45,569 nt of DNA, taken from Candidatus Kaelpia aquatica. GTDB taxonomy: Bacteria > Omnitrophota > Gorgyraeia > Kaelpiales > Kaelpiaceae. Under the pieces are notes generated by a model, which saw only the letters and a list, made by a program, of their open reading frames with translations, was not told the origin of the DNA and ran no database searches. How positions within the stretch are numbered: position 1 is the stretch's first letter; each line of letters opens with the position of its first letter. Below, piece after piece: positions 24,060 to 43,363 of the stretch. The position numbers and the translations under genes were made by a program. Location of the stretch: contig JAVCCU010000020.1 in assembly GCA_030765335.1 (NCBI GenBank), forward strand, positions 1 to 45,569, given 5' to 3'.

Positions 24060-24982
24060 CTCTCTTTTATGATCCTCCTTTTTTTAAGGGCATTCTTAAG
24101 CCAGGAGATATCTTTTATGAGGTATAGTATACATAAGGGGTTAATTGAAATCAAGAGAATCAGAAGATAGCTATCGTAGAGCAAGACGCAAGGCAGGTGC
24201 TTCATGTAATCACCCAGAGTCTCATTCTTTATCAACGTTGCATACCTATTCTTTAGATACTGCACCTTTAAGTCATCATTGAGGTTTAAAAACCCAAAGC
24301 GGGATTTTTTTCTCCAGCCTGTCACTCCCCGATAGTGAAAAGCAATAGCACTGGGCTTAAAATACGATCTCCAGCCCCTGTTCTTACCTCTCCAATTTAG
24401 ATCTAAATCTTCCAAGTAGGCCTTGTAAGTCTGGTCAAAATATTCATTCTCTATCTCTATATCCTCTAGCATCTCTCTTCTGTAACAAGCAACTGCTCCT
24501 CCCACTCCCCAAACATATCCTTCACTATAGTTGTTAGAGTCTTTTTCTTTATAACCTCTCTCATAGCCGCGTCTAGTACGTGTTAATATCTGACCTGTTG
24601 AGTCTATAAGTCTTGTGGTCGGGTTTATAAGTTTGCCAGTTGCAGAGCCTATACGCTTATCCTTTTGAAAGACTGAAGTCACTTCTTTAATATAATCTCT
24701 ACCTAAGATAACATCATTATTCATACAGAGTATAAGATCAGCATTAGCAAGCCTTATGCCCTGATTGTAAGGAGTTGCTAGAAACATGTTCTCTCGGTTT
24801 TTAACTATCTTTGCTTCTGGAAATTCTTGTTCGACCATCTCAATAGAACCGTCAGAGGAATCATTATCTATAACTATAATCTCAATATTGCTATAACTTT
24901 GATTTAAAACTGATTTAAGACAGTAGTAGAGATACTCTTTTCTGTTGTAATTTACCACTATAACTGAGATAGATTTTTTCAT
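24047..24982 (-). CDS. GT2 glycosyltransferase
   Basis: The 311-residue protein has the GT-A fold of family 2: SVIVVNYNR at the N-terminus, VIDNDSSDGS, the metal motif N88-N-D90 and the acceptor-side LEDLDLNWRGKNRGW. A hydrophobic C-terminal stretch (about 265-295) should attach it to the inner membrane. Relatives transfer rhamnose or similar sugars onto lipid-linked glycans. It lies 3 bases after a B12/radical SAM gene and closes the glycan cluster. Confidence 0.9.
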   Translation of the reverse strand: MKKSISVIVVNYNRKEYLYYCLKSVLNQSYSNIEIIVIDNDSSDGSIEMVEQEFPEAKIVKNRENMFLATPYNQGIRLANADLILCMNNDVILGRDYIKEVTSVFQKDKRIGSATGKLINPTTRLIDSTGQILTRTRRGYERGYKEKDSNNYSEGYVWGVGGAVACYRREMLEDIEIENEYFDQTYKAYLEDLDLNWRGKNRGWRSYFKPSAIAFHYRGVTGWRKKSRFGFLNLNDDLKVQYLKNRYATLIKNETLGDYMKHLPCVLLYDSYLLILLISINPLCILYLIKDISWLKNALKKRRIIKERWLN

Positions 24983-24985
24983 AGA

Positions 24986-26458: not shown

Positions 26459-27552
26459 AGCTCTCTATCTAATATTGATATTAGCTTTTGAGTCTGCCTG
26501 CGATCAGAATAATTTAACACCACACTCTCTCTGGCTGATCTTGAGATCCGAGAATAAAGTTCACTATCTTCTAATATCATCTCTATCTTATATTTAAAAT
26601 CATTCTCATCTTTAGCAAGTAAGCCGTTCTCTCCGTCTTTGATTATGCTTTTAACCTCACCAAACGATGTTGCAATAACAGGTATACCTTTACTCATAAA
26701 CTCTATTATTTTTACCGGAAATTTAGCCTCTGTAAATCTACTCTTCACCTTAAGGGGGAACAACCCTAGGCTTATATTTTCAAGGTACTTAGGAATCATG
26801 GAACCCTCTATCCAGCCTCTGTAGATAATATTTCTAAGCTCTAATCTCTTAGATTCTGCTGTAATCCTACTCTTGTAGTGACCGTCTCCTACCACCTCAA
26901 GTGTAAGATCAGGTAAATCTTTCATTATCTTAAAGAGATACTTTAGGTTGATATAATCTTCCTCTCTGAACATTGTTCCCACCCAGGCTAAAGTCTTAGA
27001 TAAGGCAGTCTTCTCTGTTGTAGGTTTAAACAGTTCAATATCTATTCCTGGAGCAAGATAATAGCTTTTTGGTGTAATAGTAGTTATATAGTCTTGTAGA
27101 TAATGGCTTCCGCTTATACAAAGAGCCGCCTTTCTTGCTGTCTTTCTGAATAGAAATTCTGCTTTTGACCTTGGGAATATACCCTTAAAATAATCGATAT
27201 TCTCCCTAAACTCCCAGTCATCTATATCGTATATAAATTTTATCCTATTTTTAAGGCAAAATAGCAGCGGAGCTAGGGAGTGATAATTAAAACGCTGAAT
27301 TACAAAGAGAGGACATCTATATTGTTTAAACCTGAGGTAAGCCTTTAAATTATAACTTATCTTATCGATTATTGAGAGATACTGCTCTAAGATGCCTGAA
27401 TAAGCTCCAAGATCTGCAGCGTAGGATAGAACATCGGCCCTATATCCGTTCTCTTTTAATATCTTTGTGAAATTATAAGCTCTATACTTTGCTCCAGGGA
27501 GATTGGGAGATTCTCTTGTTATAAATACCAGCTCATAGTCTTTTAAGCTCAT
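26455..27552 (-). CDS. GT4 glycosyltransferase
   Basis: The 365-residue GT-B protein has a C-terminal donor domain with KTLAWVGTMFREED, VVGDGHYKS and the GT4 EX7E-like region FPVKIIEFMSKGIPVIAT. The N-terminal half begins with LVFITRESPNLPGAKYRAY, typical of GT4 enzymes of O-antigen and capsule loci. It overlaps the preceding GT4 gene by 20 bases and the B12/radical SAM gene by 4. It probably adds one sugar of the cluster's glycan on the cytoplasmic face. Confidence 0.88.
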   Translation of the reverse strand: MSLKDYELVFITRESPNLPGAKYRAYNFTKILKENGYRADVLSYAADLGAYSGILEQYLSIIDKISYNLKAYLRFKQYRCPLFVIQRFNYHSLAPLLFCLKNRIKFIYDIDDWEFRENIDYFKGIFPRSKAEFLFRKTARKAALCISGSHYLQDYITTITPKSYYLAPGIDIELFKPTTEKTALSKTLAWVGTMFREEDYINLKYLFKIMKDLPDLTLEVVGDGHYKSRITAESKRLELRNIIYRGWIEGSMIPKYLENISLGLFPLKVKSRFTEAKFPVKIIEFMSKGIPVIATSFGEVKSIIKDGENGLLAKDENDFKYKIEMILEDSELYSRISRSARESVVLNYSDRRQTQKLISILDREL

Positions 27553-28714
27553 AACCCTTAAGGACTCTTCTGTATATATTTATAATATTATCTGCACTCC
27601 AGCTCCAATTGTATCTCTCAAGAGCCCTTCTTCTTGCTAGGACACCCATCTTTGCTCTTAGATCCGGCCTAGAGAGAAGCTCACTTATTCCGCCTGCTAA
27701 GATAATATGGTTACCGGGCTCTACTAATACACCAACCCCTCCGATCATATTTCTAACCTCACCCACATTGCTGGCAACTATAGCCTTACCTGAAGAGAGA
27801 TATTCGGCAAGCTTTAAAGGGCTCTTACATATTGTGATATCATTTTTAGCAAAACAACCTACGCAGGCATCGGCTGCTGCTATATATCTTTTCATTTGGT
27901 TATGAGGAAGAGAGTCAGTAAATATGATCCTATCTGAGAGCCCAAACTCTCTTGCCATGTTTTTAAGCTCTTCTAATCTATAGCCTCCTCCAACAATAAA
28001 GAACATCGTTGTCGGATGCCACTGAATAACAAGCTTTGCAGCATGAATCAATAGTTCAGCATATTGGGCACCATGCAATTGACCAAGATATAAGACTATG
28101 GGCCCATCAATACGATACTCTCTTCTGGTCTCTTCTCCTGAATTCTCAGGCTTAAACTCTTCTGGGTCCGCTCCTACGGGAGCAGCTGTAATCCTCTTTT
28201 TGGATACAGAGTAACCATCTGTTGCAAGCTGGGCAAGTCTTTGACTAGAGAGAGAGATAGAGTCCACAAACTTTGGCAGCGCTCTTTCAAGCATCCAGAT
28301 ATACAGTCCTATAACTGGAGAGGCCGGTCTTCCGTAAAAATATATTTTTGTTTCCCAATCGTCCCAATCATAATGTAAGGGTTTATTTTTTATCCAGGCT
28401 GCTATTACAGCTGGGATAGAGCAATAGTGAAAACATTTTTGGAAATGAACAATATCTGCCCATTCAACTTCATCTATAAGCCTCTTGATATTTTTAAAAA
28501 ATATCCCCAACCCCCTCCTTCTGTCTAAAGTTATTATGCTGATGTTATTATGGCTAAACGGTGAGCTCTTAAGGTCTTTATGGCTAAGCGGGAAATAGGC
28601 TATTCTTATTTCATGGCCGCTCTTCTTGAACTCTTTAGCTATAGCCTTTATTCTTATCGTCCAGGGTTCACTTAAATGGAAAATGTCATGCGGGTGCAGC
28701 ATTAATATCTTCAT
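27533..28714 (-). CDS. GT4 glycosyltransferase (start corrected)
   Basis: The enzyme is 393 residues when started at the ATG at 28714, giving MKILMLHPHDIF.... A longer frame opens at a TTG at 28768, but that would overlap the upstream gene by 49 bases and has no ribosome site. The ATG lies 5 bases after the upstream stop, with GGAAG before it. GT4 features are GPIVLYLGQLHGAQY, FIVGGGYRLEELK and the donor-binding PLKLAEYLSSGKAIVASNVGEV. The N-terminal half carries HYDWDDWETK, a motif also echoed in the next GT4 (YDIDDWEFR). Probable role: extension of the same glycan. Confidence 0.87.
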   Translation of the reverse strand: MKILMLHPHDIFHLSEPWTIRIKAIAKEFKKSGHEIRIAYFPLSHKDLKSSPFSHNNISIITLDRRRGLGIFFKNIKRLIDEVEWADIVHFQKCFHYCSIPAVIAAWIKNKPLHYDWDDWETKIYFYGRPASPVIGLYIWMLERALPKFVDSISLSSQRLAQLATDGYSVSKKRITAAPVGADPEEFKPENSGEETRREYRIDGPIVLYLGQLHGAQYAELLIHAAKLVIQWHPTTMFFIVGGGYRLEELKNMAREFGLSDRIIFTDSLPHNQMKRYIAAADACVGCFAKNDITICKSPLKLAEYLSSGKAIVASNVGEVRNMIGGVGVLVEPGNHIILAGGISELLSRPDLRAKMGVLARRRALERYNWSWSADNIINIYRRVLKGYELKRL

Positions 28715-28719
28715 ATATA

Positions 28720-31700
28720 TCAGCTTCCGGGGAAGATTATTATTCTCCTTATCTTTTTTAAAATCCAAAGATATGTCTCTGCTGCCAAAGTTAGAACTAT
28801 TATCAAAATCAGATAAGGCAACTTTAAGATTCGTTTTCTTGGAATTAAAGCCTCTCCTGAGAAATCTTTTCTCTGCTTAGGAAGGTGTTGAATCCTGTTT
28901 ACAAGAACCTCCAGTCTAGAGATGTCGACTTTATCCTCTTTCTGCTGCTTGCCCTCATCTAGGTTTGTCTCCATAACCTTAAAACCCAGCTCTTCTGCCA
29001 GCTTCAAGAGAGACTCTCCCCTCTCTCTTCTTAAAGTATAATTATTACCATCTTCTGTTTCCCAGAGATAGTGCCAGTTATCATCGGGTAAAGAATTTAT
29101 TTTAAACTCAGAGTAATTTTTATATAAATCCGTACCGGCTATAAGGTGAAGAGTATTAATCGACTTAAGAGTATTAATATACTCTCTGTTGCGTCTGAGG
29201 AAATCTGCTGTTTTCTGAAATTCAGCCTCATCTTCAGATGGAAAACCTATCATGACAAAGAGCTCTGTCTCCATGCCTGCAAGAGATGCTTTTCTCAAGA
29301 AATCTTCAGCTGTCTTAACATCATATGACTTACGCATTCTCTTTAAGACTTTATCAGAGCCGCTCTCTAGTCCAATCTGGAGCTTTACACACCCAGCTTC
29401 TTTCATCTTTTCAAGAAGGGTAATCTCCATATCCTTTCTAGGCATAGCTTCGCCTGTCCACTCTATTTTAAGTCCATCCTCTATGATCTTATTGCAAAGC
29501 TGCTCTAAGATTTGAGGTTTTCCATTTAAGAGCGGATCACAGACCGTAAAATTACTTATACCATTGATATCTTTGTGGTATTTTAACTCTTGGAATATAT
29601 GCTCTGCAGAGCGCGAACGGTAGCCTTTTATAAGCTCATGATTGATGCAGAAAGCACAATTTCCTACGCAGCCTCTAGACCACTCCAAAATAAGAGATTT
29701 CCCCGGATAAAGATTCAGATCAAAATCTTCATAGCTAGGATAGGATATGCTATCTAAATCTTTTATTACCTCTCTCTCTTTTAATCTTCCTGGTTTACCA
29801 TCAGTCACTCTTATTGCTCCAGGGATATCATTGCAATTCTCGTCTTTCATTATCTCAAGGAGTGTCTCTTCTCCTTCTCCAACAACAAAAAAATCTATAT
29901 GCTCTGCAATGTTGTCTATAAATATATTTCTTGAATGTGCTGTCAATGTGGCAGGACCACCTAAGATGATATTTTTTGAGCTATCCTTTGCCTTTATTCT
30001 CTTTATAAATTCTATTGTCAGCCGTTCTTTGGGGTCTACTACAGAGAACCCTATGATCTTAGCTCCGCTCTCTAGTATTTTGTTTACGGTTAGATCTATA
30101 TCTCTATCAAAGATTTTTAAGATAAGATTAAACCATTCTTCATCTCTCCAGAAGTTCTTGTTCTCAACATGCCAGAGATGCTGCAGTTCTTGATCTATAG
30201 AATTGTAAAATTCAATGTTAAAATCAAATACAGCGGGGTCGTAGTTGTTTTTTTTAAGATAGTCTGACAAATATCCAAGCGCTAAGGGCGGATTGTTAAC
30301 ACCCCAAGGAGCTGTTGTAATAAGAGCTACGTCCTTCTTCTTGACCTGAATGCTTTTATCCGGCAGAGCCGTTGCTCCAGTGGTATAAGGAATATTAAGT
30401 TCTCTTAAGAGTTCATGCACTCTTTTAACCCTCTTCATCCTAAAATCAAAGTCATTCCCTCTCCCTATAAACCATTTAACATCAGGACTTTCGCTAGGCA
30501 AGCTGATATTGAACTTTTCAGGGTTTGCGAATATCTCTGAGCCAGCCATTAAGAAGAGAGGATTTACAGATTTAACGTAATCTATGTTCGCTTTATTCAA
30601 CCTTATAAAATCAAGCGTCTCTTGGAAATCATCATCGCTCTCAGTTGGAAACCCAACAATAAAATAGAGTACATTTTGAATGTTTGCTCTCTTTGTTAAA
30701 GAGAGAGCTCTTCTTGCATCTTCGGCTAAGAATGTCTTCCCCATAAGCTTAAGTATTCTACTAGAGCCGCTCTCCACTCCGTACTCTAACCTATAAAAAC
30801 CTGCTCTTTTCATCTTTTTAAGCAAGTCTAGGCTCATATCTCCTCGCGGTATTGCAAGGGCTGCAAGCTTTAGATCAAGAGCCTCTTTTATTATCAATTC
30901 AGATAATTTTTCTAACCATTTTAAGTCAGAATTTATCGATGAATCTACAATAGAGAAGTACTCTTTTTTTAACTCTTTCTTATAGTATTTAAGCTCAGCT
31001 ATTACTCTTTGAGGAGATTTTCTCTTATAAGAAGAGCTCAATATTTTAAAACTGCAGAAACTACATCTGCCTATACAGCCCCGAGAGAGCTCTAAGGAGA
31101 TACTGTTATTCTCTGTATACTCTTTAAGCAAAAACCCTTCATACTTAGGAAAAGGAATCCTATCTAAATTATCTACATTACCAGGCCCTGTCTCTATGAA
31201 GTTGCCGCCTTGAACTATGACAGTATTTTCAACATCGACTATAGGTCTATTATTGGATAATTTATGAGCAAGTTTTAAGATGGTATCTTCGCCTTCTCCA
31301 AGAACCACTGCATCTATCAAATTAAAGTTGCCTAGCATCTCAAAAAACTCGTCTCTCTGCTCTTTGACTGTAACCGAAATACCACCCAATACTATTTTCT
31401 TCTGAGGTTGGCTATATTTTATTTTCTCAATCATCCACTTAAGCATTAGGTACATCGAATTTGTGGGTACTGAGAATGCAGCTATGCCTGAATCGTCGTT
31501 CTTTAAATCATTCTCTATTTCAGAGAATAGATCAGCATACTTCTCCATTAGAGAGTCGATGAATTTTTTATCTCTAAAGTAAAGAGAACAATCCATTCCC
31601 CAATATTTTTTATCATCCTCATTTACAGAGCTATAGATCTTAAGATTTAAGTCCATAATCTTTACTCTATAACCAGATACTCTCAATACCTCAGCTATTA

Positions 31701-32655
31701 CAGCCAGTCCGACCGGAGGCCTTTCAACTCCCCAGGGTGGAGGAATAATTAAGGTTATACTATTATTCTCCCTCTTGGATTCTGTCTGGGCACATTCACA
31801 CTTAAGGCAGATCAGTTTTTTTTCTGCCGGCACCTTACCGTTTATCTGGTCTCTTAAGTTATTATATTTTTTTGAGTGCCAAATATTGTAAAGAGAGTCT
31901 TTTTCAATATTACCCAGTAGAACATCTCTATTCCAATCCATGCAGCAGAGAACCACATCCCCATTTGAAAGAACATGCATCATCTCATCAACCCAAATAG
32001 AGTTGCAGCCATATAGCCCCTCATTTCTTACCTTATCTAACAAAGGGACATTTCCAGCTCTAGATATAGGATGAGAATAGCTGCTTATTCTTTTAATACC
32101 TTTTCTCTTCCAAAAACTGACTGCATCTTCAAATTCCTCTTCTGGCAATCTCTCATTTTTTATAAGAGTAAGCATTATAAAATCAGCTATATCTTTTTTA
32201 TCTCTTTGGGCAATCTTCATGAAATTAGATATATTATTTAAGACCTTTTCTGAATCCAACCCCATGGTCTCCTTAATGGTATTTTCAGTTATTCCATGCA
32301 GGCTAAATCCTACCCAATCTATACCGCTCTCAATAAGTTTAGCACCCATATTTTCATCCAGAAGACTGCCGTTGGTTAAGATATGGACTAAACTCTGAGG
32401 CAGCCTCTTTTTGATATAGGCTATCTTCTTGTCTATCTCCCTATCAAGTAAAGGCTCGTTCATTAAATAAGGCATTACCACTTTCAGATCTTTATGGTCT
32501 TTACACTCATCGATTATCTTTTTAAAGATCTTAAAGTCCATCTGCTGAGATTTTGTTCTCTCTTCAAGATAAGAGTGGGGGCAAAAATAACAACTCCCAT
32601 TGCAGCCTGAAACTGTTTGGATCATAAGATATTTAGGAAAAGCAGCTGTCTTCAT
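28720..32655 (-). CDS. Triple radical SAM protein: SPASM core plus two tandem B12-radical SAM units
   Basis: The 1311-residue protein holds three separate radical SAM cores. Core 1 is at the N-terminus (C18-x3-C22-x2-C25) and is followed by a SPASM-like Cys cluster (C217, C237, C238, C283, C286, C288). Then come two similar units of about 470 residues. Each has a B12-binding-like domain (PPPWGVERPP at about 305 and TAPWGVNNPP at about 781; LGEGEDT and VGEGEET) and a core (C527/C531/C534 and C996/C1000/C1003, both S-R-G-C-x-G-x-C-x-F-C). One membrane helix (about 1279-1299) ends the protein. It overlaps the 1919-residue gene by 4 bases. Single-core enzymes are the norm. The reaction is unknown, but glycan or lipid modification fits the context. 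Confidence 0.9.
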   Translation of the reverse strand: MKTAAFPKYLMIQTVSGCNGSCYFCPHSYLEERTKSQQMDFKIFKKIIDECKDHKDLKVVMPYLMNEPLLDREIDKKIAYIKKRLPQSLVHILTNGSLLDENMGAKLIESGIDWVGFSLHGITENTIKETMGLDSEKVLNNISNFMKIAQRDKKDIADFIMLTLIKNERLPEEEFEDAVSFWKRKGIKRISSYSHPISRAGNVPLLDKVRNEGLYGCNSIWVDEMMHVLSNGDVVLCCMDWNRDVLLGNIEKDSLYNIWHSKKYNNLRDQINGKVPAEKKLICLKCECAQTESKRENNSITLIIPPPWGVERPPVGLAVIAEVLRVSGYRVKIMDLNLKIYSSVNEDDKKYWGMDCSLYFRDKKFIDSLMEKYADLFSEIENDLKNDDSGIAAFSVPTNSMYLMLKWMIEKIKYSQPQKKIVLGGISVTVKEQRDEFFEMLGNFNLIDAVVLGEGEDTILKLAHKLSNNRPIVDVENTVIVQGGNFIETGPGNVDNLDRIPFPKYEGFLLKEYTENNSISLELSRGCIGRCSFCSFKILSSSYKRKSPQRVIAELKYYKKELKKEYFSIVDSSINSDLKWLEKLSELIIKEALDLKLAALAIPRGDMSLDLLKKMKRAGFYRLEYGVESGSSRILKLMGKTFLAEDARRALSLTKRANIQNVLYFIVGFPTESDDDFQETLDFIRLNKANIDYVKSVNPLFLMAGSEIFANPEKFNISLPSESPDVKWFIGRGNDFDFRMKRVKRVHELLRELNIPYTTGATALPDKSIQVKKKDVALITTAPWGVNNPPLALGYLSDYLKKNNYDPAVFDFNIEFYNSIDQELQHLWHVENKNFWRDEEWFNLILKIFDRDIDLTVNKILESGAKIIGFSVVDPKERLTIEFIKRIKAKDSSKNIILGGPATLTAHSRNIFIDNIAEHIDFFVVGEGEETLLEIMKDENCNDIPGAIRVTDGKPGRLKEREVIKDLDSISYPSYEDFDLNLYPGKSLILEWSRGCVGNCAFCINHELIKGYRSRSAEHIFQELKYHKDINGISNFTVCDPLLNGKPQILEQLCNKIIEDGLKIEWTGEAMPRKDMEITLLEKMKEAGCVKLQIGLESGSDKVLKRMRKSYDVKTAEDFLRKASLAGMETELFVMIGFPSEDEAEFQKTADFLRRNREYINTLKSINTLHLIAGTDLYKNYSEFKINSLPDDNWHYLWETEDGNNYTLRRERGESLLKLAEELGFKVMETNLDEGKQQKEDKVDISRLEVLVNRIQHLPKQRKDFSGEALIPRKRILKLPYLILIIVLTLAAETYLWILKKIRRIIIFPGS

Positions 32656-35600
32656 CTATCCTTATTTACCCTTTCATGGATCTGTTCGTTATGCATGAAA
32701 TTATCACATTCTTTATAGCAGCCCATCTTCTCAAAGAAAGGGTGATCTTTTTTGAAGTTCTTTGCCCGATGCCTAAAACCATTATACTCCTTGGAATACC
32801 AGATATCAGAGAGTGATGAACTGTTGATATTACCCATAACATAATCTACTCCCCTGCAGCAGGGGACAGCAGAACCATCTGCTAAGATACGCAGAAAATA
32901 CCAACCGACATAGCATGGAATTCTATCAATCCTCTTTTTGTCGTAATCACCCACTGTATTATTTAAGCTCAGTCTTTCAATAAAACCGCTGAGATTTTCT
33001 ATCTCTATCCTGCTATCTCCAAGAGAAAAGATAATGCTCTTGAGGTCAGAATTCAATTGCACAAGTTGTTCTTCTTTTAAGAGCAGGATGTCTGTCTCCC
33101 CTTTTAATGTATCTATAAGAGTGAAATATAGAGCATCCGACACTGTCTCTAAAGCAAAATCTACCATCTCTTTCATTTTCTTAAAATTCTGATTACTAAT
33201 AACATTTGCTATTGTAACCTTGGTATCATTAGCTTTAATAGAATTAAAAAGAGTTATATTTTCTTTTATCTTAAGAAAATCTTCTTCTTTTGCCCCAGGG
33301 TGCAGTAAAGCATAACTCTTGGGGTCTGGAGCCCAGATACTCAAAGCAAGTTCATCCAAGTTTAAGCTTGCAAGTTTTTTTACCCTCTCTCTATCTAGAC
33401 CGTAAAAATTGCTTGTAATGCAAGTCTTAATGCCATCTGACTTGGCTATCTCAATTAATTCAAAGACCCCTTTATAAAGCAACGGCTCCCCTCCGCCTGT
33501 AAAACGTATTGTCTTAAGCCCCATAGCTATTGCTTCCTTTATAAAGCTTTTAGCGCTATCTAATGGGATCTCCTTATTTAACCATTCCGATGAAGGCTTA
33601 TTCTCCTTAAGGTAAGGCGAGTAGAGCCAGCAGCCGTTACACCTCAGCTGACACCTATTGGTTAGGTCCATAACGACATGCTCCGGACCCTGAAAAGCCT
33701 TCCTGGATGTTGCAATACCTGCTATTACCTTATCTTTTGACTGAGCTTGATTTATTTCCTTAAGATTCTCTCTTATTCCCTCCCTCTCCCTCTTCTTATA
33801 TCTGGCTATTAATCTTAGAATAAAAGTTTCCAGTTTTGTTAAGGACATAATCTTCTTGTGCATATGAAGATTACGTCCGATATCATCACAACTCTTATAA
33901 CAACCTGCCTCTTCTGCATTTAAATCATTACCGATAATCTTAAAAAAAGGATCTTCTTTTTTATAGCAAAGCATTTTCTCTCTGCAATATATCTGCTTAG
34001 GCGAGTTCCAGATTTCACGGAAGCTATCCTCATAGATATTACCTATAGGAAATCTATGTGATTTTAAGCAAGTATTAATGTTGCCGTCTGGGAGTATTCT
34101 GACAAATAGCCATCCAATATAACAAGGCATTGAATCAATTATATTTCTATCATACTTTGCTTCTCTAACAGCTTTGTCTTCGCTCAATCTTCTCATGAAC
34201 TGATCAAACCTAAAAAGGTGGACTCCTTTATAATCGAAGTTAGAAGCTAGCTCTTTAGCTATTTCACCACAAGTATTGTAAAGATATTCCCTCTCTTCCT
34301 TATTCAAAGAGAGCTTGTCGGTCTTACCTGGAATAGTATCTATGAGTGTAAACTCAACAGATTCACAGCAGCTAGTGCGTGCAAAGTCTATCATCTCTTT
34401 TATCTCATGATAATTAATGTTGGATATTACCTCGTAAAGCTTTACTAATGGAGCTCTGCCTTTATTACGATTAAGGTAATCCAGATCCTCTTTTATTTTA
34501 TAGAATGTCTTTTCGTTTTTATTTGGATGTGTATCAGAGTAAGTTTTTGCGCTTCCGGCCCAGATACTTACTGTCAGATGGTCAACTCCGATTGCTATTA
34601 GGCGATCGATCTTCTCTTTATCAAGCAATGTAAAATTTGTATTTATATAGCAAGTTAATCCCAATCTTTTTGTATATTCTAAGGCTTCCATTATATCAGG
34701 ATGCATAAAAGGCTCTCCGCCACCAGAATAATAGACCTCTTTTGCACCCATATTTTTTACATCGTCTAAAATGTTTTTGAGAGTATCAAGAGGTATGTAC
34801 TGTTTTTTTAATTCAGAAGGCATTTTTTCCTCTCCTAATAACGGCGAATTACACCAGCACCCTATACAATCATTATTACAATTGTTAGTCAGGTCTATCT
34901 GAACATGGAAAGGACCCTTGTAAGCATATCTTGAGTCAAATATTCCTATGATATCCATATAACTATTGATGAAATTTACGGGTTTTAAAAATTTTAAAAC
35001 CCTCTTTAGTGTGAGTTTTACTCCATGTGTTTTGAACGACTCTTTTAGTATTCTTAGAGGATCTTTTTTGCTATAGAGCGTTGACGGGTCACAGAGATAT
35101 TGTTCTCTTTTTTTGTTTTTAATCTTTAGTTCAAATCTGTCTATATGCGGAATATGGCGAGAGGAGTATATCTCTATACTATGAACCCCTGCATCAAAAT
35201 AATATTCAAGCTCTTTAAAAGACTTAAGATTCTTATTCCCCCAGCCACCTGTTGTAGCTTTTGCAATTTTACTAAGGTACTCATTGTCTATTCTAAGCTC
35301 GACAGGCCTAGGCACCTCAGAAGCATATTTAATATAGAATTCATAGAATCCGGGAGTTGAAACTTTTATATTATACTTTGCATACCCAAAACCAACCCCT
35401 CCATCTATAACTATCTCATTACCAAAAGAGTTGCTGTCTCTATTAAAATTACCGTATTTAAAACTTTTAGCCGGTATTATAATATTTTTCTTGTGGTATT
35501 TAACCTCCGAATAATTAGAGTTTCGGGGTTTAATGTTATCCAATAACTCCTTGTGGATATTTAGATTCATCCCGAGATTATCACAGATTTTATAGCAGTC

Positions 35601-38411
35601 TATAGCTGAGAAATAACCATCTTTTTTAGAGAGGTTCTTACAGTTATAACGGAACCTATTGTAGGGTGTAGATGAGAATATATCCTGGAAGCGATTCTCT
35701 TTAATATTTCCAAGCATCAGATCTTCCGCCTTACAGCAGGGCTCAACATCACCGTTAGTGGTTATCCTTGTAAAATACCATCCTACATAACAAGGTAACG
35801 AATCTACAAACTCCCCATCTAAATTTAAACATTCTCTGGATATCGAATCTACACGCCTCAGGAAAGTCTCAATCCCCAAAATCCTCAAAAGGTTTATTTC
35901 AAGCGGTGTCTTACTATCGTCTTTATAGCATTTCTGATATAACTTACACTTTTTGCATATATCCTGATTAAAATAATAAATTATACATCTTATATCTATA
36001 GGTGGACGGGTTCTTCTTTTCTCGCTGTACTTTCCGCTAGGGCATCTTGCCAGTCTTACACCGTTAGTAAGGCTAAATCCTTCTTTGAACTTATTTAAAA
36101 ACCTACCGAAATCTTTAAGCTCATTTTTATGTGAAGAGGACTCAAAAACTTCAATGGTTTCATTTGATATAAAGTCTGGCACATAATCTTTACGATCTTT
36201 AAATTGAATAAGCATCTTATTGATGATAAGAGCCTCTTTTTTTGTAATAGCCAGGTGTTCTGTTGTATCCTTTATTGGCTCCATTAACTGAAACTCAAGA
36301 GAGTCTACTCTTCTATCTAATGCAAAATCCAACATTTGCGGGATATTGCAATAGTTTGCCTTAGATATTACATTATATATTTTGACAATCGGTCTATCGT
36401 CTTTTCTTCTCTTAAGCAAGTATTCTATATTTATAGCTATTTTCTTAAACATGTCAGGATTTGACCCTGGGTGTGTCTTAAGGTAGGTCTTTGTATCTCC
36501 TGCCCAGAGACTAATAGTGATATAATCCAACTTAAGTCTAAGGAGCTCGTCTATAAGCCTTTTGCTGAAAAGAGTAAAGTTAGTCACAAGGTGTAGGCGT
36601 ATTTTTTGAGTCTTTATGTACTCAACTATTTCCAATAAATTAGGATGCATTAACGGCTCTCCACCACCTGAAATCTGTATCTCTTCTACTCCACCCTTAT
36701 GTAGCTCATCAACAATATCTCTTATAGTGTCTAAAGATAGCTGCTCTTCCAATCTCTTTCTATTTATATTTTTTAAGTAAGGTGAATACAGCCAGCAACC
36801 TATACAACTTAAATTACATTTATTAGTTATATCTATGACTACTATCTTAGGACCACTATAAATAGTATGGCCGCTCAAAATACCTTTTAATACAGCATTG
36901 TTCTTGGCCTGTTGTTGCCCATCATCTTCTTTAATTTTTTTTAACTGGCGCTTTGTATGTAAGTAAGATATCTTTTTCTGTAATGCAAATTTAGTACCGT
37001 ATAAATTTAAACAATTCCAAAATGATTTTACCTCTTCGATTTTAGTCTTCTTAAGTAGAGAGGTTACTTTATTCTGGTTCCATATTTTATAAGCATTAGC
37101 TAGAGATATTTCCAGGTTATCTGAGCTGAGATCGGTGAGATTTACAACAGACGCTTTATGTCCATCAAAATAGCTCCAATCAGATGGCTCGCTCCACCCT
37201 TTCTCTTTAAGGCTTTTAAAATAACTTGTACCGGGGAATGGAGTGGTCAAAGAGAATTGAACCGAGTAAGGATTTAACTCGCAAGCTAAAGCTATTGTTT
37301 TTTCTATTGTTTTTTTTGTCTCTCCAGGCAGACCAAAAGTAAAGGTAAGATGGGTCTTTATACCTAAAGAGTGGGTTAATTCAATCATTTTAAGCGTGTA
37401 TTTTAAATCCATATTCTTGTTAGCATTGTTAATTAACTCTTGAGAAGACGATTCAACCCCATACTTTACGCTATATAAACCTGCTTGACGTAAGCTAAAA
37501 AGTAACTCTTTATCCATAAGATCAGCTCTAGCCATAATGGCCCAAGGGAATCTCAGCTTTCTTTTTCTAATCTCAGCTGCTATTTCCATCAAAAACACCT
37601 TATTTACATTTGCAGTATCATCATCAATATATATAGACTTAAAGCCACTCTTTTTTATGAGATATTCCATCTCATCTACTACTTTGAAAGCATTCCGTGT
37701 TCTGTAAGAATTACCGTGATACATTACGTGAGGCCAAAGGCAAAATATACATTTAAAAGGACAGCCTCTCGATGTCCACATCTGGACAGATGGCAGAGGC
37801 ATACCGCCGGGAGCATCAACGTAGTGCTCCATAAAAAGACCTTCTCTCTGCGGCCAAGGAAGAGTATCTAGATCTTCTATTAAATCAGCTTGGCAGTTTT
37901 TAACTATCCTGCCATCCTCTCTATATATTATACCCTTTACTTCAGAAAGAGATTTCTTGTCTCTTAAAGCAGTTGCTAGCTCAAGAAGTATGTTCTCATA
38001 CTCTCCAATTAGGATATAATCAATAAAGTCATTTTTTTTAAAAAAATCTATACTTTGTATGTTTTGCTCCGGACCGCAGAATGCTACAGGAGCTATATTT
38101 CTTATTCTTTGAGCAAGAGATAAGTCATGCCCTAAAGAAGGAGTTGATGTCTCAGCAACTATCAAATCTGGTTTCTCTTTCTCGAGAGTTCTTATAAAAT
38201 CAGTTACCTCTATCTGTTCTGCTATTGCATCTACAAGTATTATGTTGAATCCATTCTCTTTCAATAATGCTGCTGCATAACCTAAGAAAAAAGGGTAAGG
38301 TAAATAATCTCTTTCGTTACTTGAGTGTCTTAAATGAGGCCAACGTGAACCCGCTCTTACTCCCCAGAGTCCGTGACATTTCCAAGGCATATTTAGTAGT
38401 GCTACTTTCAT
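32652..38411 (-). CDS. Quadruple radical SAM protein with internal CBM6/35-like domain
   Basis: The 1919-residue frame is open over 5.76 kb. Module 1 is a B12-binding/radical SAM unit (about 1-450; C217/C221/C224 in CPFKCIFC). Modules 2, 3 and 4 are SPASM-type cores, C532/C536/C539, C1178/C1182/C1185 and C1587/C1591/C1594. Each has D-x-T-N-x-C-x3-C-x-G-C-W, a GGGEP SAM motif and a C-terminal Cys cluster with PCY-[IV]-GW. Between modules 2 and 3, residues about 995-1097 form a jelly roll like CBM6/35 (TPGFYEFYIKYA, VELRIDNEYL, FDAGVHSIEIYSS, HIDRFELK). The product lacks a signal peptide and should be cytoplasmic. It probably performs several radical modifications on one glycan or glycolipid, or serves as a scaffold; this is inference. 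Confidence 0.9.
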   Translation of the reverse strand: MKVALLNMPWKCHGLWGVRAGSRWPHLRHSSNERDYLPYPFFLGYAAALLKENGFNIILVDAIAEQIEVTDFIRTLEKEKPDLIVAETSTPSLGHDLSLAQRIRNIAPVAFCGPEQNIQSIDFFKKNDFIDYILIGEYENILLELATALRDKKSLSEVKGIIYREDGRIVKNCQADLIEDLDTLPWPQREGLFMEHYVDAPGGMPLPSVQMWTSRGCPFKCIFCLWPHVMYHGNSYRTRNAFKVVDEMEYLIKKSGFKSIYIDDDTANVNKVFLMEIAAEIRKRKLRFPWAIMARADLMDKELLFSLRQAGLYSVKYGVESSSQELINNANKNMDLKYTLKMIELTHSLGIKTHLTFTFGLPGETKKTIEKTIALACELNPYSVQFSLTTPFPGTSYFKSLKEKGWSEPSDWSYFDGHKASVVNLTDLSSDNLEISLANAYKIWNQNKVTSLLKKTKIEEVKSFWNCLNLYGTKFALQKKISYLHTKRQLKKIKEDDGQQQAKNNAVLKGILSGHTIYSGPKIVVIDITNKCNLSCIGCWLYSPYLKNINRKRLEEQLSLDTIRDIVDELHKGGVEEIQISGGGEPLMHPNLLEIVEYIKTQKIRLHLVTNFTLFSKRLIDELLRLKLDYITISLWAGDTKTYLKTHPGSNPDMFKKIAINIEYLLKRRKDDRPIVKIYNVISKANYCNIPQMLDFALDRRVDSLEFQLMEPIKDTTEHLAITKKEALIINKMLIQFKDRKDYVPDFISNETIEVFESSSHKNELKDFGRFLNKFKEGFSLTNGVRLARCPSGKYSEKRRTRPPIDIRCIIYYFNQDICKKCKLYQKCYKDDSKTPLEINLLRILGIETFLRRVDSISRECLNLDGEFVDSLPCYVGWYFTRITTNGDVEPCCKAEDLMLGNIKENRFQDIFSSTPYNRFRYNCKNLSKKDGYFSAIDCYKICDNLGMNLNIHKELLDNIKPRNSNYSEVKYHKKNIIIPAKSFKYGNFNRDSNSFGNEIVIDGGVGFGYAKYNIKVSTPGFYEFYIKYASEVPRPVELRIDNEYLSKIAKATTGGWGNKNLKSFKELEYYFDAGVHSIEIYSSRHIPHIDRFELKIKNKKREQYLCDPSTLYSKKDPLRILKESFKTHGVKLTLKRVLKFLKPVNFINSYMDIIGIFDSRYAYKGPFHVQIDLTNNCNNDCIGCWCNSPLLGEEKMPSELKKQYIPLDTLKNILDDVKNMGAKEVYYSGGGEPFMHPDIMEALEYTKRLGLTCYINTNFTLLDKEKIDRLIAIGVDHLTVSIWAGSAKTYSDTHPNKNEKTFYKIKEDLDYLNRNKGRAPLVKLYEVISNINYHEIKEMIDFARTSCCESVEFTLIDTIPGKTDKLSLNKEEREYLYNTCGEIAKELASNFDYKGVHLFRFDQFMRRLSEDKAVREAKYDRNIIDSMPCYIGWLFVRILPDGNINTCLKSHRFPIGNIYEDSFREIWNSPKQIYCREKMLCYKKEDPFFKIIGNDLNAEEAGCYKSCDDIGRNLHMHKKIMSLTKLETFILRLIARYKKREREGIRENLKEINQAQSKDKVIAGIATSRKAFQGPEHVVMDLTNRCQLRCNGCWLYSPYLKENKPSSEWLNKEIPLDSAKSFIKEAIAMGLKTIRFTGGGEPLLYKGVFELIEIAKSDGIKTCITSNFYGLDRERVKKLASLNLDELALSIWAPDPKSYALLHPGAKEEDFLKIKENITLFNSIKANDTKVTIANVISNQNFKKMKEMVDFALETVSDALYFTLIDTLKGETDILLLKEEQLVQLNSDLKSIIFSLGDSRIEIENLSGFIERLSLNNTVGDYDKKRIDRIPCYVGWYFLRILADGSAVPCCRGVDYVMGNINSSSLSDIWYSKEYNGFRHRAKNFKKDHPFFEKMGCYKECDNFMHNEQIHERVNKDR

Positions 38412-39175
38412 TTTTTAATAATCGATATTTCTAGTTCAAAAAGTCTGTATTCACCTGGCCTGTATTCAACTTCGCCTTCCATGATTGCTTGCAACAGCCT
38501 GCCGTTGAGATGATCATCTGTATTTTGCACTATTGTTTTAGAAAGATAAAGTGAGTCAATTATTTTGAATTTTAAATCGGGGAAATTTAAAAGACTATCT
38601 TTAATACTTATAGTTAAGGGGGTTTTTCTTTTAATCTTAAACATCTCTTGCCATTGAAAGTTATCCCAAGGTAAATCTAACCTTTTCTTATCCAAAATTA
38701 AACTATCGTAGATGTTGTTAATAATTAAACCTGATTTTATCTCTTCAATCACAATGTGATTCTCAACTATAAGCGTGACTTTCCAAATAACGCTCCTCTT
38801 TTTAAGAGTAAAAACCCAATTACACTTAAGAGGTAAGTTCCACCACCTCTCTTTGACGATAAGAGAATCTCCCTCTCTTTTAAACCTAAATTCGGCTTGC
38901 GTTGAATCATGCCATTTTTCTAGATTTTTAACAGCACTATGGAATCCGCAGTTGTTTGTGATAAAATTTTTCCCTACTATCAGGTCTATACCGTTTGAGT
39001 TCGTCACTACAGTGATATCATCTTTAAAGATTAAGATTGGCACTACTTTCTTCTTTTTTTTCTCAGCTTTTTTAAAAATTAAATAATCAAAAATTTTAAT
39101 AAAAGTTATGATTATTCCTTTTTCTCTTAAAAAAGATGTTATTTTTTTTAAAATAATTTTAACTCTTTTAATCAA
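38408..39175 (-). CDS. Beta-rich protein related to the ABC ATPase C-terminal domain
   Basis: The 255-residue protein begins at TTG (39175), overlapping the upstream gene by 8 bases; no in-frame ATG is near. Residues 1-43 are basic and amphipathic (FLREKGIIITFIKIFDYLIF, then poly-Lys), suited to membrane-surface binding. Residues about 48-255 are beta-rich, with W-H-D-S (88-91), W-W-N-L-P (111-115), F-P-D-L-K-F (198-203) and GRLLQ. The same landmarks occur in the same order in the neighbouring 219-residue protein. No known family is recognised. Its place between the exporter and the radical SAM genes suggests that it binds or modifies the exported glycan. Confidence 0.75.
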   Translation of the reverse strand: MIKRVKIILKKITSFLREKGIIITFIKIFDYLIFKKAEKKKKKVVPILIFKDDITVVTNSNGIDLIVGKNFITNNCGFHSAVKNLEKWHDSTQAEFRFKREGDSLIVKERWWNLPLKCNWVFTLKKRSVIWKVTLIVENHIVIEEIKSGLIINNIYDSLILDKKRLDLPWDNFQWQEMFKIKRKTPLTISIKDSLLNFPDLKFKIIDSLYLSKTIVQNTDDHLNGRLLQAIMEGEVEYRPGEYRLFELEISIIKK

Positions 39176-39827
39176 TTTTCAACACACTCTCTAATGACAT
39201 AGCACAATTATCTTCAATCAAACCATCTTCTGTATTTACAAAAAGCAACTGAAGTATTCTAGCTGAATCTTCAAAGCCTGTATTTTCAATTACATTTAAA
39301 GTGTCTTTTTTGGTTAAAGTTGATATCCAAGTTAAGTCTGGAACAGAACTATTAGTAGATTTAAATGTTATCTGACTATCTTTTAGTTGAGGCATAGACC
39401 AGACTCTATCCCAAAGCAAGCCTTTGAAATTAGAGAAATATTCTGGAAATTTACCTTTAACATATCCTTTTACTACAAAATCAGTATAATAATCTATAAG
39501 CATAAAATTTTGTTGAACCATACTTACGATTAAATCATTCAAATTATCCCATTTTATAGACCAATGCAACTTACCGTCTTCGAACTTAAAATACCAGCTC
39601 TGTCTATGAGGAAGATTTGCCCATTCTCCATACAAAGATATACTATTTTTATCTGAATCTAGTATTTGCCATATTGCAAAACGCGAATCATACCAAGCGT
39701 TATTGTGGTAAATGCTGGAATATAATCCACGGCTTCTACTTAAAATGATGCCTTCATAGCTTAGGGTGGCGTAACCTAAAAGAAAATCCAACTCCATGCC
39801 GTCTTTTTTTATGCAGTTTCTTTTCAT
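39168..39827 (-). CDS. Beta-rich stand-alone domain related to the ABC ATPase C-terminal domain
   Basis: The 219-residue protein has no signal peptide. Its landmarks are W-Y-D-S (45-48), W-A-N-L-P (69-73), W-x-F then W-S-I-K-W, V-P-D-L-T-W (162-167) and ARILQLLF (189-196). They match the 255-residue neighbour, and more weakly each half of the ABC ATPase's C-terminal region. It overlaps that ATPase gene by 4 bases (ATGA). I see no catalytic signature. A role as a glycan-recognition or enzyme-partner module is the simplest inference. Confidence 0.75.
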   Translation of the reverse strand: MKRNCIKKDGMELDFLLGYATLSYEGIILSRSRGLYSSIYHNNAWYDSRFAIWQILDSDKNSISLYGEWANLPHRQSWYFKFEDGKLHWSIKWDNLNDLIVSMVQQNFMLIDYYTDFVVKGYVKGKFPEYFSNFKGLLWDRVWSMPQLKDSQITFKSTNSSVPDLTWISTLTKKDTLNVIENTGFEDSARILQLLFVNTEDGLIEDNCAMSLESVLKID

Positions 39828-41713
39828 GTCGCTATTTTGATTGAAAAATCACTGTTTTTTAAGTGGGGTAAAAATTTTAAATTAGTAGCACCTTTGTAGT
39901 AGCTATCCTCTACTATTTCCAAGCTTGTAGTGCTATTCAAGGTAAACTTTAATTCTGGCACATTATCTTTTAAAGAAGAAAGCACTAGAGAGTCTGTTGT
40001 TAATATGCTGGTTTTCTCCCCGATTACTCCTTCAGCAATATCGGAATTATAATATCTATATCTTGCTTCTGAATCCAATATAAATCCTACACCTGTTAGA
40101 TTCACAGTAGCGCTGGGAGTAAAAGAAGAAAAATTGAAAATCAAACCCGAAGAACTTATATTCACTACTAAAAGTAAGGAAACACCAATTTTTGAAAATT
40201 TTATTATCATCTGCAAATTTGATAAATCTGATTGATTTAATAGTTCACACTCAAAATCTTCAAAAGCTTCTTTTTGAAAATGAGAGATAAAGTTTATTTT
40301 TTTAAATAAAGTCATGTTAATAATTCCTAACTTGATCAAGCTATTGTTTATTAACTCAGTTAAATCTCGTAAAGCTACATTATTTTTTAAACTATTGCTG
40401 TTTGTTTCTTTTTCTTGAGTAGGATTTAACACCATACGAATATTCACTTGAGGTTGAGATGTTGTAATCCGCACTATCCTCATAGGGGCGTTGAAATAAT
40501 GATTGAAAAGATCTATTTTTGCTTTCTTATCAGAGTAAACTATAAAAGACATCTCAGGATACCCCTCTCTAATATCGGGTATTAGCCTCATATGGCTCGC
40601 AACGGCACTGGCTATCTTTTTCCACTCCCTTGCAACTACCCTCTCTACTGATGGAAGCTCAATCAAATTATTGCCTATCTGAGCTTCTAAGTATGCATCC
40701 TTAAGCATAAAATTAATTTCAAGTTCTGGATATTTACATTCTAAGGTATAATTTATGCCTTCAGGGTTAAACTCTAAGTCTACTTTACATATCTCTTCCT
40801 TCTCCCTGGTTAGACCATACGCAATTAATCTATCTTTATATTCTTCCACATCCCATTTAAAATCTGTTGAATAAAGAACGCCTCCATCTTTTTTAAAACT
40901 TAAGAAACCACCCAGATCAACAGTCAAAGGAGTACCTTTATATCTTAATACTATCTTTCCGTTATTAAATACGACATTAAGGTCTGTATTCTTAATATAA
41001 CCACTACCCCAGATATCCCCTTCTATCTCAAGGAATATGTTTCTCATCTCACTTATATTGCCTTCTGCAAATATTTTACCTTTCTCTAAAACTATACATC
41101 TTGAACATAGTTGTTCTGCCAAATCTAAGTTATGAGTTACTATAATCACTGTCTTCTCAGAACCTGTAATCCCTTTTATTCTTTTTATACATTTTAGCTG
41201 AAAATGATAATCCCCAACTGCTAGAATATCGTCTACTATTAAAATATCCGGATCTGTATGTATGGCTAAGGAGAATGCTAGACGCAAATACATTCCTTGG
41301 GAATAGGCTTTTATGGGGGCATATATGAAATCTCCAAGCTCGGAGAATTCAGCAATATCTCTTAAGACTGCGTCGTCTTTTATTTCATAGAGTTTAAGAA
41401 TCATCTTAAGATTCTCGTATCCTGTAAGATCAGGAATAAATCCTGCCTCAAGAGCAAAGATGCCTCTCACTTTACCAGTTACATTTATAGTTCCCGAATC
41501 CGGATTAAGTATCCCAGCAATCAACTTAAGTAGCGTAGTTTTTCCAGCTCCATTTGGACCGAGCAACGCTACGGACTCCCCTCTTTTTATTTCAAGACTT
41601 ATATCCTCAAGAGCTTTTATCTTTTTATCAACAGACTTGTCAGGATAAGAAAACCTTATTTTATAATACTCACAAAGTCCTTCTATCTTTATTGCTGTCA
41701 CAATGTCGCTCAC
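39824..41713 (-). CDS. Wzt-like polysaccharide ABC transporter ATPase with a large novel C-terminal region
   Basis: The 629-residue protein starts at GTG, supported by GAGGAA five bases upstream. The ATPase domain (about 5-235) has Walker A G52-PNGAGKTT60, signature YSQGM (about 138-141) and Walker B ILIVDD (157-162), where the usual catalytic Glu is Asp162. The switch His is H194. The remaining 390 residues are far longer than the single Ig-like glycan-binding domain of E. coli O9a Wzt. They look like two beta-rich copies (about 243-430 and 440-629), with Y-P-E-M-S-F and V-P-E-L-K-F near the end of each. With the adjacent permease it should export a lipid-linked glycan across the inner membrane. 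Confidence 0.87.
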   Translation of the reverse strand: MSDIVTAIKIEGLCEYYKIRFSYPDKSVDKKIKALEDISLEIKRGESVALLGPNGAGKTTLLKLIAGILNPDSGTINVTGKVRGIFALEAGFIPDLTGYENLKMILKLYEIKDDAVLRDIAEFSELGDFIYAPIKAYSQGMYLRLAFSLAIHTDPDILIVDDILAVGDYHFQLKCIKRIKGITGSEKTVIIVTHNLDLAEQLCSRCIVLEKGKIFAEGNISEMRNIFLEIEGDIWGSGYIKNTDLNVVFNNGKIVLRYKGTPLTVDLGGFLSFKKDGGVLYSTDFKWDVEEYKDRLIAYGLTREKEEICKVDLEFNPEGINYTLECKYPELEINFMLKDAYLEAQIGNNLIELPSVERVVAREWKKIASAVASHMRLIPDIREGYPEMSFIVYSDKKAKIDLFNHYFNAPMRIVRITTSQPQVNIRMVLNPTQEKETNSNSLKNNVALRDLTELINNSLIKLGIINMTLFKKINFISHFQKEAFEDFECELLNQSDLSNLQMIIKFSKIGVSLLLVVNISSSGLIFNFSSFTPSATVNLTGVGFILDSEARYRYYNSDIAEGVIGEKTSILTTDSLVLSSLKDNVPELKFTLNSTTSLEIVEDSYYKGATNLKFLPHLKNSDFSIKIAT

Positions 41714-41714
41714 C

Positions 41715-42488
41715 TTAATTCCTCTTCAATATATATTTCTCTGTTTTTCTATATAGTAGGTATCCAAATAATATAAAAACAATACTTATAATGCAAGTAT
41801 ATGTATAGGTATTTTTTAAAAAAGGACTGTAATTGACAATAAGTATACACCTGTATAGCTCGATAAAATATGTTAAAGGGTTCAAAAATATCAGAAACCT
41901 TATGTTTTCAGGGACCATATAAGGCGAATAGAAAACGGGGGTAAGCCAGAAGAGAGTCATTAAGAGAACTCCAAGCAGATGCCGAAAATCTCTGAAATAT
42001 AGGTTTACTACAGCTACTATCAATGACAGTGCAGCTGCAAATATTGCAGCCATTAGAATCGGCAAAATCAGTAATGGAAATTTAAAAATCAAAACCTTGT
42101 TGAAGAATATAAATACAGGTAGCAGGAAGAGAATGGCTATTATATGCTCAATTGTATTTGAAAGAACAATGGATAGCGGATAGATAATCTTTGAAAAGTT
42201 GAACTGATTCATAATGGACTTATCTTTTATAAATGCCTCTGTAGATTCGACTAAAACATTAGAAAAATAGAGCCAGGGGAGCAGAGCTGAAAGAACAAAA
42301 ACATGAAAGTTTTCCTTAGAGACCCCAAGTACTTTGACAAAAACAAAACCTATTGCGCCCATAAGAAGAAGTGGTATTAATCCAGCCCAAACTATCCCCA
42401 GCAATGTAGAGGCGTATTTAAAGCGTATATTGCGGACGGTTAAGTCTTTAAGGTTTTTTATGTTTCTTAATATCAGCTCTTTTTTCAT
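41715..42488 (-). CDS. Wzm-like ABC-2 polysaccharide permease
   Basis: The 257-residue protein has six hydrophobic segments and the ABC-2/TagG-Wzm pattern: TVRNIRFKYASTLLGIVWAGL near the N-terminus (split across an amphipathic helix and TM1), VVNLYFRDFRHLLGVLL in the middle and FWLTPVFYSPYMVPE before the last helices. Such permeases form the membrane channel of O-antigen, teichoic acid or capsule exporters. It is next to its ATPase and overlaps the upstream GT2 gene by 4 bases. Confidence 0.92.
   Translation of the reverse strand: MKKELILRNIKNLKDLTVRNIRFKYASTLLGIVWAGLIPLLLMGAIGFVFVKVLGVSKENFHVFVLSALLPWLYFSNVLVESTEAFIKDKSIMNQFNFSKIIYPLSIVLSNTIEHIIAILFLLPVFIFFNKVLIFKFPLLILPILMAAIFAAALSLIVAVVNLYFRDFRHLLGVLLMTLFWLTPVFYSPYMVPENIRFLIFLNPLTYFIELYRCILIVNYSPFLKNTYTYTCIISIVFILFGYLLYRKTEKYILKRN
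41719..41724 (-). promoter_or_regulatory. Ribosome binding site supporting the GTG start of the ABC ATPase gene
   Basis: GAGGAA precedes the GTG at 41713 by five bases and spans the end of the permease gene. It favours this GTG over later in-frame starts. Confidence 0.5.
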
Positions 42489-43363
42489 AGCATAGCATTT
42501 AGGTCAGATAAAGACCTCTTTATCATCTTATAATCCAACGCTGCCAAGTAAAACACTCGCGGTAAATCATAGAAAAATAGCGATAAAATTAAATAAGGCA
42601 GGTTTCTGAAGCTAAAATGTTTTATAATAAGGTAGTATCTATTCCTGAAAGATAAATACCGTATCTCTTCAGGAGCTATCTTACTTCCATGCCTATAGTG
42701 ATAACTAGTTGCATCTTTAATATATTTAAAACCCCAGCCTTTCTTCCGAGCCCTCATAGCAACATCGAAATCCTCAACCAGGTAATGCATTTTGGAATCA
42801 AAAAATTCGGAGCAGAAATCTATTTTTATGCTCTCCAGCATTTTACGCAAGTATAATCCGGCACACGCACAGGGGCCTAGAATACCTCTAGTCCATACCC
42901 TTTCTAAATCAGAGATATTCTCTCCAGAACCGACATCATAAAACCTGTAGAACCTGCTCAACTTAATACCTAGAGAGTCAATGGATTCTTTATCTCTCAT
43001 GCTCACAGCGGTTCCGCCCCACATACCTACATTGGAATTTGAATTTTCAGCCCCCCTAACTATAGTTGATATAAAACCTTTATCGAGAATCATATCTGAG
43101 TCTAAGGTTAGCAGATACTTAGACTCGGTACTCCTTATAACTCTGTTCCTAGCACTACAGACACCTCTATTGGTTTTATTTCTTACTAGCTTCACGCTTT
43201 TAAATTCCTGAACTATATTTGAAGTATTGTCCCTAGAGTTGTTATCAACCACATAGACATCCAGGTTTGAATAGTCTTGACTCTCCAAAGAGTTAAGACA
43301 ATCGCCTATAAACTGCCCTGCGTTAAACGCTGCTATAACCACTACCACTTTAGGGTCATTCAT
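42485..43363 (-). CDS. GT2 glycosyltransferase, rhamnosyltransferase-like
   Basis: The 292-residue protein shows the GT-A family 2 motifs VVVVIAAFNAGQFIG, VVDNNSRDNTS and the metal motif D88-S-D90 (TLDSDMIL). VEDFDVAMRARKKGWGFKYI serves as the acceptor/catalytic region (fragments only). It resembles WbbL-type rhamnosyltransferases of O-antigen loci. The C-terminal hydrophobic stretch (about 255-275, LPYLILSLFFYDLPRVFYLA) suggests membrane association. It opens the glycan cluster, one base after the nitroreductase stop, and overlaps the permease gene. Confidence 0.9.
   Translation of the reverse strand: MNDPKVVVVIAAFNAGQFIGDCLNSLESQDYSNLDVYVVDNNSRDNTSNIVQEFKSVKLVRNKTNRGVCSARNRVIRSTESKYLLTLDSDMILDKGFISTIVRGAENSNSNVGMWGGTAVSMRDKESIDSLGIKLSRFYRFYDVGSGENISDLERVWTRGILGPCACAGLYLRKMLESIKIDFCSEFFDSKMHYLVEDFDVAMRARKKGWGFKYIKDATSYHYRHGSKIAPEEIRYLSFRNRYYLIIKHFSFRNLPYLILSLFFYDLPRVFYLAALDYKMIKRSLSDLNAML

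Follow-up and report, generated by a model that had tools for sequence, protein, structure and literature searches.

Radical SAM enzymes usually carry a single core. FbiC (CofG/CofH) joins two different radical SAM cores in one chain that serves one pathway, SPASM and B12-type radical SAM enzymes are common maturases of ribosomal peptides (RiPPs), and AprD4 deoxygenates an aminoglycoside sugar. Export of O-antigens can depend on a chemical cap that is added in the cytoplasm and recognised by a carbohydrate-binding domain at the tail of Wzt, and recognition of the cap by this domain has been established in Aquifex (PMC9445017). In the literature that we searched, which included few subscription papers, we found no earlier description of a four-core radical SAM protein and nothing relevant on multi-core radical SAM proteins or on radical SAM enzymes in O-antigen export. 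Here we analyse a 45,569-nucleotide contig of Candidatus Kaelpia aquatica (Omnitrophota; JAVCCU010000020.1), hereafter the window, in which a single gene encodes four such cores beside a putative polysaccharide exporter.

Results

Translation of the four-core gene yields 1919 residues followed by a stop codon, with no internal stops; the plus strand of the same interval is full of stops. The original prediction of one continuous frame with four CxxxCxxC motifs (beginning at C217, C532, C1178 and C1587) was thus confirmed at the coordinates it gave, but it had omitted the strand, which is minus (Table 1). Searches with Pfam bore out the predicted four Radical_SAM stretches (5.5e-77, 258 bits, over the cut-off) and three SPASM stretches (PF13186; 2.3e-31, 108.3 bits in all), while the B12-binding assignment at the N-terminus of module A is borderline, its 33.8 bits lying just above the cut-off of 32.1. 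The cysteines of all four motifs are invariant among the relatives aligned, and GGGEP occurs, as foreseen, in each of the SPASM-type modules B, C and D.

Table 1. Features of the four-core gene and its surroundings. Positions are those of the window unless a locus is named (A, B12-type core; S, SPASM-type core; b, beta domain; ABC, exporter ATPase).
Feature	Position	Strand	Remark
Four-core radical SAM protein, 1919 aa	32652..38411	-	A - B - CBM35-like - C - D
Module A, residues 1-447	37071..38411	-	B12-binding-type N-terminus and radical SAM core, HpnJ/AprD4-like
CxxxCxxC of module A, C217-C224	37740..37763	-	
Module B, residues 503-956	35544..36905	-	Radical SAM core and SPASM-type auxiliary site
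CxxxCxxC of module B, C532-C539	36795..36818	-	
Module B insertion, residues 781-835	35907..36071	-	Cys 790, 819, 822, 828
CBM35/CBM6-like carbohydrate-binding-type module, residues about 957-1100	35112..35543	-	Between B and C
Module C, residues 1149-1522	33846..34967	-	Radical SAM and SPASM
CxxxCxxC of module C, C1178-C1185	34857..34880	-	
Module D, residues 1558-1915	32667..33740	-	Radical SAM and SPASM
CxxxCxxC of module D, C1587-C1594	33630..33653	-	
Three-core radical SAM protein, 1311 aa	28720..32655	-	SPASM-type, B12-type, B12-type (S-A-A)
Single-core B12-type radical SAM protein	24986..26458	-	
Stand-alone beta protein	38408..39175	-	Predicted supersandwich, no Pfam match
Second stand-alone beta protein	39168..39827	-	No Pfam match
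Wzt-like ABC ATPase	39824..41713	-	Beta-domain tail
Wzm-like ABC-2 membrane protein	41715..42488	-	
Family 2 glycosyltransferase	42485..43363	-	
Glycosyltransferase	26455..27552	-	Glycos_transf_1
Glycosyltransferase	27533..28768	-	Glycos_transf_1
Probable family 2 glycosyltransferase	24047..24982	-	Read from translation
ABC-b-b-A-b-S, 1915 aa	L048:5028-10772		One open frame
ABC-b5-S, 1865 aa	L133:533-6127		One open frame
ABC-b-b-S, 1230 aa	L137:2934-6623		One open frame

The auxiliary cysteines of B (874, 892, 893, 939, 943), C (1430, 1448, 1504, 1508) and D (1833, 1851, 1852, 1898, 1902) are invariant in 10/10 aligned relatives, in keeping with the auxiliary cluster predicted for each unit. 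Their pattern is a short form of four (C) or five (B, D) cysteines and not, by the cysteine alignment, the classical seven-Cys SPASM with two auxiliary clusters. A further four-Cys site, in a different order, is confined to B and was lacking from the original prediction; its cysteines, likewise invariant in 10/10 relatives, make the B insertion a possible extra cluster. Judging from ligands kept in every relative aligned, there could be four core clusters in the chain along with three auxiliary ones, and perhaps one more.

Between the second and third cores, a profile search uncovered a CBM35/CBM6-like module that had previously been missed. A 13-member profile of the segment matched solved structures at 7.2e-5 (2w1w/2w47), 4.1e-4 (8j3x) and 0.016 (2vzp); the single sequence of residues 957-1100 gave no CBM match in Pfam. 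The best profile match is a modest 7e-5, and the module may bind carbohydrate. At locus L093 the module occurs as two tandem copies, and it therefore behaves as a separate domain. A structure model of module B with the CBM (pLDDT 75, medium) serves fold-level statements only.

The question whether the fusion arises only by misassembly of genes that are otherwise always separate was answered by its relatives: the fused form was found again in genomes independent of the window's, all of one family. One full-length, unbroken relative (82% identity, 1917 aa) comes from the same genus and a second (61% identity, 1928 aa) from another genus of the family, and a fragmentary relative ended by a contig edge (L011) fits the same fusion. 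In a phylogenetic tree B, C and D fall into separate clades, with the exception that the B sequences of the window's own family lie outside the other B group, and orthologues of C and D elsewhere are free-standing or differently fused genes, which indicates a fusion of old paralogues and not a repeat error. On these grounds misassembly and tandem duplication were ruled out.

Against the 82% relative, dN/dS is 0.10 for A, 0.10 for B, 0.07 for C and 0.13 for D, and there are only two indels, each of a single residue; such values across the cores indicate that the frame is far more than chance. The linkers between modules are poorly conserved, and the one between C and D is less constrained (dN/dS 0.57). 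Decay of the extra cores was excluded by the invariant cysteines and the low dN/dS. One relative (G004, L045), from a genome of the family that is 59% complete, lacks about 63 residues in module B and is split there, which may reflect decay or poor assembly. This broken copy is what speaks for regarding the 1919-residue frame as an assembly artefact or a decaying fusion; set against two other intact full-length copies, core dN/dS of 0.07-0.13 and the different paralogues that make up B, C and D, we consider the chance of this negligible. Translation, ligand conservation and substitution rates establish, at the level of sequence, four separate, intact and selected radical SAM cores in one polypeptide. 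That all four are active, as originally proposed, is consistent with the conserved ligands and with purifying selection.

We then compared the locus with its relatives across Omnitrophota, where these modules are encoded by individual genes or joined in fusions of two, three or four cores. Strong relatives of the four-core protein, counted at a strict threshold, are present in 61 of 384 genomes of the class. The claim that the number of cores is exceptional holds up, and among the loci compared four cores per chain were seen only in the window's family; outside it the modules appear as adjoining genes or smaller fusions. Several families have three-core B-CBM-C-D chains with A as the gene directly upstream (L046, L047, L088-L092), and at L047 the two share a frame, parted by a single TAG (7455-7457). 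Other lineages carry A-C fusions, A-beta-C-beta chains or separate genes, the last at L039 (a Desulfobulbaceae assembly), L041 and L057; module C is the usual partner of A there. The gene order Wzm - Wzt with beta domain - A - S is found again in many lineages.

Other three-core chains were also encountered, namely A-A-A (L046:1791-6425, 1545 aa) and A-A-S (L141:3555-7964, 1470 aa), as were long runs of single-core SPASM-type genes in similar clusters, up to about nine per locus (L053, L054, L102, L107, L114). The window's genome (G000) has 34 Radical_SAM domains above the cut-off in its 1.34 Mb, of which this cluster accounts for eight, and on another contig (C38, L064:5401-8352) it encodes a 984-aa B12-type radical SAM protein with two beta domains.

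Two features of the surroundings were absent from the original prediction. First, the next gene after the four-core gene, overlapping it by 4 bp, encodes a 1311-aa S-A-A protein that is conserved within the family (L043, L044 and L045), so that two adjoining genes encode seven cores. Second, both lie in an operon of Wzm/Wzt-type exporter and glycosyltransferase genes that abut or overlap throughout (24047 to 43363), the exporter being recognised from an ABC-2 membrane protein beside an ABC ATPase with a C-terminal extension. Homologous loci also hold a PF00953-type phosphoglycosyltransferase, a carbamoyltransferase and a PMT_2 protein.

The ATPase tail and both proteins encoded between the ATPase and the four-core gene have one domain in common. 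This beta domain gave 185 matches in 65 of the loci retrieved. It forms one to five repeats behind Wzt and also stands before A, between cores or by itself. Pfam matches neither of the two stand-alone proteins, and a profile search of the PDB with the domain returned no match, so that its fold rests on a model. The model (pLDDT 93) resembles galactose-mutarotase-type supersandwiches, which belong mostly to carbohydrate enzymes but also to YidC; carbohydrate binding is thus not proved by the fold. The ATPase tail does not appear to be a jelly-roll carbohydrate-binding domain, its stand-alone homologue being predicted as a supersandwich. The domain tends to accompany relatives of the four-core protein: 49 of 56 class genomes that encode it also have a strong relative, versus 61/384 overall, a comparison that serves as a guide only, as it ignores shared ancestry and scores genomes that are not in both samples as negative. 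Most strikingly, a single open frame joins the ATPase, beta domains and one or two radical SAM cores in three genomes, each of a different family (Table 1).

These arrangements bear on whether the fusion matters at all. Four ordinary enzymes of one pathway could have been joined through gene adjacency and act independently, with no channelling: separate adjoining genes suffice in L039, L041 and L057, one stop codon parts A from the three-core gene in L047, and the linkers show little conservation. We regard this as possible but rather doubtful, since the full-length fusion is kept across genera at 61% identity and fusions, exporter ATPase included, have arisen repeatedly and independently. The kept fusion and the repeated independent ones suggest a benefit of proximity.

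None of the modules reaches the cut-off of a named NCBIfam family, and we therefore propose sugar-directed radical chemistry without naming the reaction. For module A the nearest family is the hopanoid enzyme HpnJ (TIGR03471), to which it was not assigned (252.7 bits versus a cut-off of 577.6), and it also matches the lipid-acting families TIGR04072 and HpnR. Its nearest solved enzyme is AprD4 (6fd2), an oxidoreductase of the apramycin pathway; a review of cobalamin radical SAM domains (PMC13331322) mentions neither AprD4 nor HpnJ. Module C gave weak matches to PqqE and to BlsE (7vob, a cytosylglucuronate decarboxylase), and the modelled fold of module B (pLDDT 75) is nearest SuiB and SkfB. 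The maturase of a tungsten-cofactor oxidoreductase (TIGR04317) was rejected at 87.1-111.3 bits per module versus a cut-off of 380. For the 1311-aa neighbour the nearest families are RiPP and phosphorus methyltransferases, far below cut-off, and the RiPP C-methyltransferase TIGR03975 was rejected at 122.8-131.2 bits per module versus 281.85.

The likeness of A to HpnJ, TIGR04072 and HpnR, together with a polyprenyl-synthetase-like gene (read from translation) in the Desulfobulbaceae cluster L039, raises the idea that the target of the cores is not a sugar but a lipid (polyprenyl, hopanoid-like or of the membrane), such as the anchor of the exported glycan. With the HpnJ score so far beneath its cut-off and with CBM and supersandwich domains that point to sugar, this appears improbable. 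Alternatively, the cores might modify a ribosomal peptide, whose mature product the ABC transporter would export. SPASM and B12-type enzymes often mature RiPPs, the three-core neighbour is nearest TIGR03975, and SuiB and SkfB are the closest folds to module B. Every family score is nonetheless below cut-off, the transporter is of the Wzm/Wzt type and accompanied by glycosyltransferases, and the chain contains a CBM-like module. The genes between 24047 and 43363 abut or overlap, with no space in the operon for a precursor gene, which disfavours a peptide substrate, and we hold a role in peptide maturation to be quite improbable.

Discussion

On the basis of the parts observed, their conservation and their association, we infer a substrate, reactions, an order and channelling as follows. 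The four-core protein probably, though with real room for doubt, remodels an export-bound, lipid-linked glycan at the exporter. A glycan is the likely substrate: the original proposal of a glycan or glycolipid is supported by the CBM35-like module, by the operon of Wzm/Wzt and glycosyltransferase genes, by the domain held in common with Wzt and by the three Wzt-radical SAM fusions, and the sugar-acting solved relatives of A and C (AprD4, BlsE) are consistent with it. The processive assembly line that accompanied this proposal is an interpretation of the same parts.

The operon's glycosyltransferases would make a lipid-linked oligo- or polysaccharide in the cytoplasm, and the CBM35-like module and supersandwich proteins would hold it. 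In each core a 5'-deoxyadenosyl radical would form and take a hydrogen atom from a sugar or from the lipid anchor. The reaction of module A (deoxygenation, methylation or ring chemistry) might be of the B12 class or resemble that of AprD4 or HpnJ; modules B, C and D might carry out SPASM-class oxidation, epimerisation or formation of C-C or C-S bonds, and additional steps would fall to the three-core neighbour. Once modified, the glycan would be exported after recognition by the beta-domain tail of the Wzt-like ATPase, in the manner known for O-antigen caps; export enters the best explanation because cap recognition by Wzt provides a precedent (PMC9445017). Fusion would set the modules at a fixed ratio, and a single chain would stay close enough to be reached by all four active sites. 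In its strongest form, which we advance tentatively and think less probable than otherwise, the four cores and the three in the next chain would constitute a covalent assembly line, docked on the polysaccharide exporter via the shared glycan-binding domain and installing sugar modifications that license export.

The radical SAM core and exporter types seen here are already known, and as far as the literature searched goes, the four-core chain, the CBM-like module within it, the shared domain and the Wzt-radical SAM fusions are apparently undescribed. The natural series of one-, two-, three- and four-core proteins, along with the exporter-ATPase fusions, makes the chaining of radical reactions on one substrate testable. 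It points to an undescribed route by which a widespread phylum of uncultured bacteria would chemically modify its surface glycans, and also to a domain family of carbohydrate type that lacks a Pfam match.

Comparison with known systems delimits what is particular to this locus. Like FbiC, the protein joins different radical SAM cores in one chain, but it has four of them, three with SPASM, as well as a carbohydrate-binding-type module, and its chemistry is not that of F420. With SPASM-type enzymes (the TIGR04317 maturase, PqqE, SuiB and the sugar-acting BlsE) modules B, C and D have in common a core and an auxiliary cysteine domain; they differ in scoring far below the family cut-offs, in having four or five auxiliary cysteines each and in standing three in tandem. 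HpnJ and AprD4 align with module A over nearly its whole length, yet both are stand-alone enzymes, whereas module A is part of a four-core chain. The likeness to CBM35/CBM6 (2w1w, 2w47, 2vzp, 8j3x) is a profile match of the segment between B and C; the known modules sit in secreted glycosidases, and here the segment is part of a radical SAM enzyme that shows no sign of being secreted. Finally, the Wzm/Wzt system of Aquifex (PMC9445017) likewise comprises an ABC-2 exporter, an ATPase with a C-terminal domain and adjoining putative glycan-modifying enzymes. Its Wzt tail is a jelly-roll, however, whereas the tail domain here, present in one to five copies, is predicted to be a supersandwich and is common to, or fused with, radical SAM enzymes.
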